64,000 nucleotides of DNA from contig JADBYQ010000018.1 of assembly GCA_020402945.1 (NCBI GenBank), forward strand, positions 1 through 64,000, written 5' to 3'. Positions 53,431-56,155 of this stretch are shown in pieces. Below the pieces are notes generated by a model, which made no database searches, was not told where the DNA came from, and was given only the letters and a program-made list of their open reading frames with translations. The stretch is from Cytophagales bacterium. GTDB lineage: Bacteria > Bacteroidota > Bacteroidia > Cytophagales > Cyclobacteriaceae. The translations under genes and the position numbers were made by a program. Position 1 is the first letter of the stretch, and the number at the start of each line of letters is the position of its first letter.

Positions 53431-54177
53431 TTAGAAAATGTAACGAAGCCCTACACCACCCTGAAAGCGTTGATAGCCCGGGTCAACAAAGGCATCGGTA
53501 AACATTTCAACTTCAATAAAAGCCGACACGGGAAGAGTAAAATAGGAGTATTCAAAACCCAGCAAGACGACTGGGCCATAGGTAAATCTGTTTTCAGAGA
53601 TTCGGCCGTTTTTTGATTCAACACGCCCATTTTCGTAGAGGTACTCATACGTGAGGCTCGTATTTCTCCACTGCCATCCTGCCCCAACATACAGTTGCAG
53701 ACCCTTTGATATTTTTTCTGCATCCCATTGATAAAGAAATTTTGCTTCCAGAAACCAATCACCGGAAATAGTATGTGTCAGGTAACGTGCTGCCTGCGCA
53801 TTGCCAACGGTATCAATCAGCGGGTCTTTATTTACCACGTCAGCTATTGCCTCGTTCTCAACATTCTCGAACAGCCCCCGATAATACTTATTGTAAAGTC
53901 CACTTGAAGCTTTGCCACCATCAACAGCAAACGCCCAATTCTTACTGGGATAGAATTTATAGGTCAGGGCAACTGGATCTCCAACCTTGAATCCAATTCC
54001 CTGGTAAGGGTATTTACTTGTTTCGAAAATAGGGCAGATAGTAATTGCTTTGCTTCGCGACACTTTTGGCATCCGGTATTTTGTACTCCGAGCGCTCTTT
54101 CCGGCTTGAGAAAATCCATGCTGGCTTATCAATATAAGCAAGAAAATGGTTACCCGAAAGATTTTATAGGGAGACAT
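53431..54177 (-). CDS. Outer-membrane beta-barrel protein of unknown function
   Basis: 248 residues from the ATG at 54177, which starts the signal peptide (IFRVTIFLLILISQHGFSQ); the longer reading upstream runs into the mobile element. The mature protein alternates aromatic and small residues in short strands (ALTYKFYPSKNWAFAVDGG, YVGAGWQWRNTSLTYEYL, FQGGVGLRYIF), a terminal Phe and no plug domain: a small barrel. No family recognised. A MITE-like element ends 50 bases before the start and may affect its promoter. Confidence 0.75.
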   Translation of the reverse strand: MSPYKIFRVTIFLLILISQHGFSQAGKSARSTKYRMPKVSRSKAITICPIFETSKYPYQGIGFKVGDPVALTYKFYPSKNWAFAVDGGKASSGLYNKYYRGLFENVENEAIADVVNKDPLIDTVGNAQAARYLTHTISGDWFLEAKFLYQWDAEKISKGLQLYVGAGWQWRNTSLTYEYLYENGRVESKNGRISENRFTYGPVVLLGFEYSYFTLPVSAFIEVEMFTDAFVDPGYQRFQGGVGLRYIF

Positions 54178-54219
54178 TAAAGCAAATATAACCCTTTTAC
54201 GCAAATGTTTTTGGTGGCA

Positions 54220-54379
54220 TGCGCCAGGGGTGTACGACAGTTTTGAATTTCTCCGTGACCCTTGTGGTTTCTTTGTGTTCCCCGTGGTAAAAATGCAAAC
54301 CACTAAGTGCTCAAAGGTTGCAGAAAGTACACCATTGAGCTATCCACCTTAAGCAAAACTGTCGTACACCCTGCGCCAG
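54220..54379. mobile_element. MITE-like element with 18-bp terminal inverted repeats and 8-bp target duplication
   Basis: The 144-base element 54228-54371 begins and ends with GGGTGTACGACAGTTTTG (54228-54245) and its perfect reverse complement (54354-54371). It is flanked by identical TGCGCCAG copies, 54220-54227 and 54372-54379. The inside has no coding capacity; it contains a purine-poor stretch of the form CTTGTGGTTTCTTTGTGTTC that recalls the CACGAAGCACAAA-type phrase at 3470-3500. It lies between the ABC-exporter stop (54383) and the outer-membrane gene start (54177). An 8-bp duplication fits IS1595-, IS66- or IS256-type transposases; none is in the window. Confidence 0.85.
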
Positions 54380-54382
54380 ATG

Positions 54383-56155
54383 TTAAGCTATTTCTTTGTA
54401 CTGCATTTTGTGCAGTTGGGCGTAGAAACCATCGCTCGCCAAAAGTTCATCATGGCTACCCGATTCTTTGATCTCTCCCTTATCTAAAACGATAATTTTA
54501 TCGGCCTTTTGAATCGTAGATAATCGGTGGGCAATTGCAATAGACGTTCGATTGGTCATCATTTTTGAAATCGCATTTTGAATCATCTCTTCTGTTTCAC
54601 TATCTACCGAAGAGGTGGCCTCATCTAGCACCAATATTTTTGGGTCATAAACCATGGCGCGTATGAACGAGAGTAGCTGTCGCTGCCCCACCGAAATGGT
54701 TGCGCCACGCTCCATCACGTTGTAGTCCAGGCCCCCTGGGAGTCGATCAATAAATTTTCTTGCACCAACAAGATCGGCAGCATGTAGGATCATCTTATCG
54801 GTAACTTCTTTGTTTCCAAGCGTGATATTATACCGAATTGTATCGGAGAAGAGAAAAACATCTTGCAAGACCACGCCAATGTTTTTTCGGAGTGAGGCGG
54901 TGTCAAATTCTTTGATATCCATACCATCCACTTGAATGGAACCGCGATTGATTTCGTAAAAACGATTGAGTAGGTTAATGATGGACGACTTTCCGGCCCC
55001 GGTTGCTCCTACTAAGGCGATGGTCTCGCCTGGTTTGATATCAAGGCTAATATCTTTCAAAACATAATCGGCATCATTGTAGGCAAACCAAACATGGTCA
55101 AACTTTACCTGGCCCTTTATATCGCTTGGCGTAACCGTTCCATTTGGCATTATGTCTGTTTGATCATCTAATAAATTGATAATTCTGGAAGAACCCACTA
55201 TACCCATTTGCAGCGTATTGTAGCGGTCTGCGATCATTCGAATGGGCCGGAAGAATAACTGGATGAACATAATGAAAGAAACCAGTTTGCCAATGGTGAT
55301 GCCAGTAGCCTCCATGTTGATTATGCCTTTTGCGCTATACCAAACCAGCAAGCCTGTGCCCATAGCGGCAATGATTTCGGCAATGGGGAAGTACACGGAG
55401 TAATAGAGAACCGATCTCAAGTGAGCGTTTCGATGCTCCTTGTTGATTTCTTTAAATTTCTCGAACTCTCTCTTTTCACTTCCGAAAATCTGCACGATAT
55501 TCATCCCTGTAATGTGTTCTTGCACGAAGGAATTTAAATTAGATACTGCATTACGCACATCGTTGAAAGCTACTTTTATTTTCTCCTTAAAGACGTAAGT
55601 GGCGAGTAACATCAATGGAATAGTAGACAGGCTTACCAGCGTTAACTTCCAATCAATCCAAAACATGAAAGCTAAGATGAAAATGATTTGAAGTAAATCG
55701 CTGGCCATAGCTGCTAGCCCTTCGCTAAACACGTCAGACAAGGTTTCAACATCTGAAATGGTACGAGTTACTAATCTGCCGATAGGCGTTTTATCAAAGA
55801 AACGCAATCGGAGTTTGATCAGATGTTCATACAATTGAATGCGGATGTCGCGAATGATGAATTGTGCAATTCTTCCTGAAATGTAGGTGTGGGCGTATTG
55901 TACAGCAGATTGAACAACCAACAACCCAAGGATGATCAACATGATATTTACCATTGCCCAATAGTTGCCGTACTGGACATGGGTATCCAACGTATATTGA
56001 ATAAGCATTGGCCTGATCGGTGTGAGAATCCCCAATAAGAACGTAAGCACGATGACAAAGTAAAAACGCCCCTTGTAGGGTTTTACAAACTGCATGATGC
56101 GCTTAAGTACTTTGAAATCGATGATATTCCCGCTACTTACTTTTTCTTTTTCCAT
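54383..56155 (-). CDS. ABC-type multidrug/lipid exporter, half-transporter (MsbA-like)
   Basis: 590 residues. Six membrane helices over about 1-320 (ABC type 1). The nucleotide-binding domain has Walker A GATGAGKSSIINLL, the ABC signature VSVGQRQLLS, Walker B ILVLDEATSS and the H-loop AHRLST. A homodimer or heterodimer is required. Related to the Bacteroidota MsbA/YheHI group; substrate not predictable. Ends 4 bases from the mobile element's right target copy, which lies just downstream. Confidence 0.9.
   Translation of the reverse strand: MEKEKVSSGNIIDFKVLKRIMQFVKPYKGRFYFVIVLTFLLGILTPIRPMLIQYTLDTHVQYGNYWAMVNIMLIILGLLVVQSAVQYAHTYISGRIAQFIIRDIRIQLYEHLIKLRLRFFDKTPIGRLVTRTISDVETLSDVFSEGLAAMASDLLQIIFILAFMFWIDWKLTLVSLSTIPLMLLATYVFKEKIKVAFNDVRNAVSNLNSFVQEHITGMNIVQIFGSEKREFEKFKEINKEHRNAHLRSVLYYSVYFPIAEIIAAMGTGLLVWYSAKGIINMEATGITIGKLVSFIMFIQLFFRPIRMIADRYNTLQMGIVGSSRIINLLDDQTDIMPNGTVTPSDIKGQVKFDHVWFAYNDADYVLKDISLDIKPGETIALVGATGAGKSSIINLLNRFYEINRGSIQVDGMDIKEFDTASLRKNIGVVLQDVFLFSDTIRYNITLGNKEVTDKMILHAADLVGARKFIDRLPGGLDYNVMERGATISVGQRQLLSFIRAMVYDPKILVLDEATSSVDSETEEMIQNAISKMMTNRTSIAIAHRLSTIQKADKIIVLDKGEIKESGSHDELLASDGFYAQLHKMQYKEIA

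Follow-up and report, generated by a model that had tools for sequence, protein, structure and literature searches.

A 144-bp MITE with ISKra4-type ends between an ABC exporter gene and its downstream neighbour in a Cytophagales genome

Background

Among the bacterial MITEs described so far, Nezha, BrickBuilt and the Cardinium MITE appear, in the available excerpts of the sources, as small intergenic elements with inverted-repeat ends and no transposase gene (PMC4596501 and PMC9769881 for BrickBuilt and the Cardinium MITE; Nezha as cited in PMC10969869). According to the same excerpts, BrickBuilt carries a 23-nt minisatellite inside and its ends resemble those of ISPg1 and ISPg9 (PMC4596501, PMC9769881). 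ISKra4 is unmentioned in the excerpted descriptions of these three elements (PMC4596501, PMC9769881, PMC10969869), and a literature search for ISKra4 together with MITE gave matches, PMC9208149 among them, with neither term in the titles or abstracts. For GxxExxY proteins, which enter our analysis through the repeats found inside the element, the search led to PMC8934634, the excerpt of which treats reverse transcriptases. No publication pairing PDDEXK_3 with an inverted repeat was found by a search outside of which most subscription papers and ISfinder lie, and an earlier description of an ISKra4 MITE or of GxxExxY repeats may exist.

The element analysed here is likewise small, intergenic and bounded by inverted repeats. 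It resembles the ISKra4 family (NF033572) in its terminal GGGTGTACGACA, in duplications of 8-9 bp and in a transposase fragment from another genome that reaches the exact 18-bp end; it differs from ISKra4 insertion sequences in being 144 bp long and gene-less, and its exact ends are so far unseen on an element with a full transposase.

Results and discussion

Boundaries and structure of the element

The element was delimited within a 64-kb stretch of DNA (the window) and its surroundings comprise the following features.

53431-54177, minus strand: downstream neighbour, a 248-aa outer-membrane-type protein (open frames, profile searches)
54183-54191, minus strand: TTATATTTG motif outside the MITE, likely the -7 element of the downstream gene's promoter (conserved as TTAT[AC]TTTG)
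54220-54227, no strand: left target duplication TGCGCCAG (sequence; 8/8 match with the right copy)
54228-54245, plus strand: left terminal inverted repeat, 18 bp (sequence, 18-mer scan)
54246-54353, no strand: interior of 108 bp without a gene (sequence, open frames, no Rfam match)
54251-54279, minus strand: array of three CRCDRAG 7-nt units, score 20/21 (array scoring)
54299-54327, plus strand: second array in opposite orientation, score 19/21 (array scoring)
54354-54371, minus strand: right terminal inverted repeat, 18 bp (sequence, 18-mer scan)
54372-54379, no strand: right target duplication TGCGCCAG (sequence, flank comparison)
54383-56155, minus strand: upstream neighbour, an ABC exporter of 590 aa (best NCBIfam model TIGR02203 MsbA, E 2.1e-143, below cut-off)

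The MITE occupies 54228-54371 (144 bp), with GGGTGTACGACAGTTTTG at 54228-54245 on the plus strand and its perfect reverse complement at 54354-54371; the terminal inverted repeats match at 18/18 positions and the intergenic element is flanked on both sides by the same target repeat TGCGCCAG, identical at 8/8 positions. The length, exact boundaries, perfect ends and 8-bp flanking repeats given by the first-pass annotation, a reading of the sequence that preceded this analysis, are thereby confirmed to the base. With up to three mismatches allowed, the 18-mer has two sites in the whole window, both of them the MITE ends (chance mean 0.05), and none of 100 shuffles gave two matches. Rfam yielded no match up to E 1 across 53800-54800. 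Inside the MITE, an open frame starting from GTG at 54303 continues into the downstream gene, while the remaining frames are chance frames only; since the downstream gene in relatives begins after the MITE position, we take the element as non-coding despite the GTG frame. As a single strand the whole MITE folds well (z -5.79 as RNA, -4.58 as DNA), and the interior alone folds at z -1.34, most of the folding being owed to the ends.

Copies, flanking duplications and relative age

The window's own genome (G000; 136 contigs, 99.91% complete) contains three full copies of the MITE. A further copy, close to the end of contig C104, is partial (59 bp); it has the same outer flank as the full C18 copy, and we read it as an assembly branch. 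On that contig the partial MITE is followed by 84 bp of other sequence up to the contig end (L015:2208-2292). The MITE is present in 3 of the 96 relatives searched, this genome counted, and in 4 of the 62 genomes of the genus, where 18 full copies were found in all (three in G000, twelve in G025, two in G445 and one in G010) and 58 genomes have none. The comparison of the 18 full copies left out the C104 partial copy and an interrupted copy of G025. The latter (L066:4984-5317) is split by about 190 bp of other DNA, has a left end without its first bases and is flanked by the 8-bp repeat ATGTCTGC.

The first-pass annotation had proposed a genome-wide search for multiple copies with different 8-bp duplications, and such copies exist: the flanking 8-mers are identical in 8 of the 18 full copies, one position off in four and worse in six, so that 12/18 match at 7 or 8 positions, compared with 0.06% of random 8-mer pairs that match at 7 or more. 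The six copies with poor duplications are G000 C18 (a 5-bp GTACT repeat only), G010 C95, G025 C83 (8/9 at 9 bp), G025 C25 and the copies G025 C3 and G445 C92, both of which are orthologues of the window copy. From the consensus the copies differ in 1 to 15 columns, and 74 of the 145 alignment columns are invariant.

Orthologous insertions of the window copy are present in G025 and G445. Its 300-bp flanks share 99.0 and 97.7% identity with those of G025 and 90.6 and 95.7% with those of G445, and the MITE itself differs from its orthologue at 8/144 positions in G025 and at 7/144 in G445. Judged by these alignments, the insertion predates the split of the three species (G000, G025, G445). No blastn match of the MITE was found in plasmids and the exact 18-mer is absent from viral contigs.

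Insertion site and neighbouring genes

Of 58 genomes of the genus, 53 have the exporter, and the best 30 loci were examined. The downstream gene follows the exporter in 28 of these; it was not seen in L105 and L112, and in L112 the contig ends there. In 26 of the 28 loci the same gene pair stands without the MITE, separated by 28-75 bp as against 209 bp in G000 and G025; spacers were measured from the end of the exporter alignment, with the stop codon and one extra base counted, and are approximate because the downstream starts were estimated from protein alignments. Subtracting the MITE and one duplication (152 bp) from 209 leaves 57. Relatives lacking the insert, which the first-pass annotation had wished to see compared, are thus recognised by gene order and spacer length and not base for base, since the exporter of the nearest MITE-free relative is only 86% identical.

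The exporter stop codon (54383-54385) is separated from the right duplication by 3 bp, and the likely minus-strand ATG of the downstream gene (54177-54175) is 50 bp away from the MITE, both distances being as annotated before. The earlier description of the downstream product as an outer-membrane protein is borne by a signal-peptide-like start and by our own reading of the 248-aa protein, but not by family models, as NCBIfam and Pfam gave no match at E 0.001. Ahead of the start codon, TTAT[AC]TTTG is found in 25 of the 28 loci, the window among them; given the form of Bacteroidetes promoters, the TTATATTTG motif is presumably a promoter element. The MITE is 36 bp upstream of this conserved motif, which is intact, and for this reason the suggestion that the insertion may affect the promoter of the next gene finds no support. 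The insertion thus fell between the end of the exporter gene and the promoter-like motif of its neighbour.

Transposase family

Scanning one genome per species for the exact 18-mer yielded 26 loci. By our reading, seven of them are MITE copies already counted (L036, L038, L043, L044, L045, L046, L054) and L039 is an interrupted copy; L034 and L047 are other small elements, the second end of L047 being weak, and L033, L049 and L052 are single ends in Cyclobacteriaceae genomes. Ten are apparent chance matches in other bacteria, and L040 and L048, both of unclear kind, make up the remainder together with L051, where the last codons of a 194-aa frame read through the exact 18-bp end. This frame matches model positions 244-422 of ISKra4 (E 7.9e-31, 107.6 bits, cut-off 205), and L051, a truncated element, thus encodes the C-terminal piece of an ISKra4-like transposase.

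A search with L051 through 390 genomes of the order, at E 1e-30, located 17 places in 9 genomes. On ten of these the ends could be placed, delimiting larger elements of 1221-1331 bp. The first 12 bp of the MITE ends, GGGTGTACGACA, are exact at both ends in five of the ten (L085, L086, L087, L094, L100) and the other five have near variants. Perfect duplications of 8-9 bp flank seven (L085, L086, L087, L088, L093, L094, L095), that of L100 matches at 8/9, and L092 and L099 are without one; the frames of L094 and L100 are shortened. For all seven transposases tested (320-365 aa between stops), NF033572 (ISKra4) was the best model at 154-189.9 bits; as every ISKra4 match misses the curated cut-off of 205 bits, we speak of ISKra4-type elements. 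The seven frames leave the first 73-113 of the 422 model positions uncovered, and a second frame or a frameshift may supply the missing N-terminal part.

No insertion sequence combining the exact 18-bp ends with a full transposase was seen in the scans. Of the five genomes that harbour L051, L052, L049, L033 and L047, three gave transposase pieces in a profile search; apart from the L051 place, none of these pieces has the exact ends. An insertion sequence with the same ends had been expected to name the family; the name ISKra4 does follow from the GGGTGTACGACA ends and L051, but not from a full insertion sequence with the exact 18-bp ends. The MITE is short, lacks a transposase gene and has inverted repeats, differing duplications and MITE-free counterpart sites. 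With the ISKra4-type elements it shares its ends and the size of the duplication (8 bp in the MITE, 8-9 bp in the larger elements), while the scores of the latter stay under the curated cut-off (154-189.9 versus 205 bits) and no partner with the same ends turned up in a carrier.

Partner transposase in the carrier genomes

The NCBIfam ISKra4 model found nothing in G000, G010 and G025 (G445 lay outside that set) and matched 6 of the 96 relatives, none above the cut-off. A more sensitive profile of eight transposases gave nothing up to E 1 in G010, G025, G445 and G048, and four C-terminal fragments in G000, all on contigs other than that of the window. The earlier statement that the transposase of the element is not in the window therefore holds as far as tested, with the ISKra4 model null genome-wide and fragments present only off the contig. 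Read on the reverse strand, the four fragments terminate in GGGTGCATTTCAAATTG, each next to a different flank, and G000 probably hosts an unassembled multi-copy ISKra4-type element with other ends. Contigs C55, C56, C96 and C128 of G000 end inside the same ISKra4-type transposase C-terminus (L241-L244). A partner insertion sequence with the ends of the MITE was not found in the carriers, which are MAG assemblies, so that its absence is not proof. Because the carriers yielded no insertion sequence with the exact ends, the MITE is probably an old relic, and in G000 it would for the same reason be immobile now.

Origin of the element

Ends, duplications, further copies, orthologous insertions in two other species, MITE-free relatives and larger insertion sequences whose ends and duplications match were all observed, and we consider it very probable that the 144-bp element is a non-autonomous ISKra4-type MITE that was moved in trans and inserted at this site between the exporter and the next gene before the three species separated. 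An ISKra4-type transposase supplied in trans would have recognised the two 18-bp ends and moved the MITE, duplicating 8 bp of the target, and the window copy would have landed past the exporter stop codon and ahead of the next gene's promoter, at a time when the three present-day species had not yet diverged; the mobilisation in trans is what we infer from these sequence comparisons. The earlier reading of a transposed, non-autonomous element is upheld by the copies with differing duplications, the larger insertion sequences with similar ends and the relatives without the MITE. A hairpin formed by chance, or a fixed structural repeat without any history of transposition, would be in keeping with the low copy number (three full copies here, none in 58/62 genomes of the genus), but it is refuted by the differing flanking duplications at many sites and by presence and absence at a conserved gene pair, and its probability is negligible. 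The mover might instead have been the resident ISKra4-type element of G000, as the four C-terminal fragments at contig ends suggest an unassembled multi-copy element there; however, its end GGGTGCATTTCAAATTG has little in common with the MITE beyond GGGTG, and the MITE is present in G010, G025 and G445, where nothing of this kind matches up to E 1, which makes this an improbable source.

Retention of the MITE for regulating the downstream gene, for instance by contributing to its promoter or by terminating exporter transcripts, could be suspected from its position 50 bp from the start codon, at the same place in three species, and from its single-stranded folding (RNA z -5.79, DNA z -4.58). 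We regard such a role as unlikely: the conserved motif is at its usual place outside the MITE, 26 relatives manage without the element, and the folding comes mostly from the ends, the interior alone reaching z -1.34. Between G000 and G025 the MITE differs at 8/144 positions within 300-bp flanks that are 97.7-99% identical, which gives no sign of constraint, whereas the comparison with G445 (7/144; flanks 90.6-95.7%) is neutral on this point. The well-delimited element, read as an ISKra4-type MITE, is ordinary in kind, yet it makes a clean case in that its ends and duplications are known and an old insertion has orthologues, and its family, relative age and site are now established.

Interior arrays and other small elements with similar ends

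Each of the two interior arrays consists of three 7-nt units C-R-C-D-R-A-G with spacers of 1-4 nt (period 8-11); the unit was defined after the MITE and the GxxExxY loci had been looked at. Out of a maximum of 21, the arrays score 20 (54251-54279, minus strand) and 19 (54299-54327, plus strand). When the window was scanned every 54 bp, no other place reached 19, and a score of 20 was attained by none of 300 interior shuffles and none of 500 stretches of window positions 1-54000.

Five of the 395 genomes of the class, that of the window among them, contain pairs of the 12-bp core 95-125 bp apart (reversed control 0 in the listed genomes). In G048, of the same genus, a 130-bp element (L034 and L178, one place) has an array score of 20 and an imperfect duplication, and one of its ends is the exact 18-bp sequence. 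Perfect duplications of 8 or 9 bp flank the elements of G538, G805 and G510, which have different interiors. Array scores are 20 in the families of the window and G048, 18 in G538, 17 in G805 and 15 in G510. Interior folding ranges from z -0.82 (G805) through -1.24 (L057), -1.34 (window), -2.24 (G048), -2.52 (G510) and -2.88 (L047) to -5.51 in G538, whose interior is a strong palindrome of CACATAG units; the idea that every ISKra4-type MITE encloses a palindrome thus holds only partly. The interior of a 142-bp element at L180:1501-1642, which has ISKra4-type ends and 8-bp duplications, is a palindrome of CACATAG units. A genome-wide abundance of the interior repeat was considered and rejected, as the interiors match only themselves in the sequence covered (163 kb for G538, 400 kb for G048); doublets compared with the reversed control number 2 versus 2 in G048 and 3 versus 0 in G538.

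Arrays at GxxExxY genes

GxxExxY (TIGR04256) genes are present in 49 of the 62 genomes of the genus, and the one checked, at L141, corresponds to Pfam PDDEXK_3. These genes are often bracketed by inverted arrays resembling CACAGAG, CGCAGAG and CGCAAAG (L147-L176, L221-L240). A strict doublet is found within 200 bp in 21 of 30 GxxExxY loci, in 12 of them on both sides and inverted, and in none of 284 distant stretches of the same loci or 664 exporter-locus stretches; it misses the MITE of the window (0/319 stretches). With a three-unit score of at least 19 within 108 bp, arrays were recovered on at least one side in 24/30 loci and on both in 18; four of 1266 exporter-locus stretches pass, these being the MITE itself in L102 and L103 (reversed control 0). 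In 20 further GxxExxY loci, drawn in order from the match list, an array lies on at least one side in eight and on both sides, inverted, in six, compared with 1/874 distant stretches (Fisher p 1.1e-13, a value that ignores descent among the loci). This second set overlaps the first, as L223 contains the L141 place and L231 and L232 resemble orthologues of L171 and L165; with the three removed, 5/17 have an array. The link between arrays and GxxExxY genes appears clear in the genus but not universal, 12 of the 20 loci in the second set being without an array.

The repeats flanking GxxExxY genes form arrays of the same 7-nt unit as those inside the MITE. They bracket a gene and point towards it, whereas the MITE has no gene and its arrays point away from each other, and the strict doublet and CCACAGRG patterns detect the GxxExxY-flanking arrays but not the MITE of the window. 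The CCACAGRGNNCACARAGNNNCAC pattern occurs at 7 places in 4 of the 96 relatives (control 0) and is absent from the genome of the window. It is conceivable, although we hold it rather doubtful, that the MITE interior is a gene-less copy of a repeat system which is tied to GxxExxY genes, that ISKra4-type ends enclosed CRCDRAG arrays at least twice in the genus (the window family and G048), one mobile family carrying the repeats of another, and that GxxExxY genes are central to a mobile or repeat-guided element of which little is known. With these caveats, the association of the arrays with GxxExxY genes is a lead worth following: it suggests a connection between a nuclease-like family of unclear role and a recognisable DNA repeat, through which the mobility or DNA target of GxxExxY proteins would become testable. 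As a further observation, on contig C12 of G048 (L144, L146) CCACAGAG-type palindromes are repeated at a distance of about 503 bp and enclose similar sequence.
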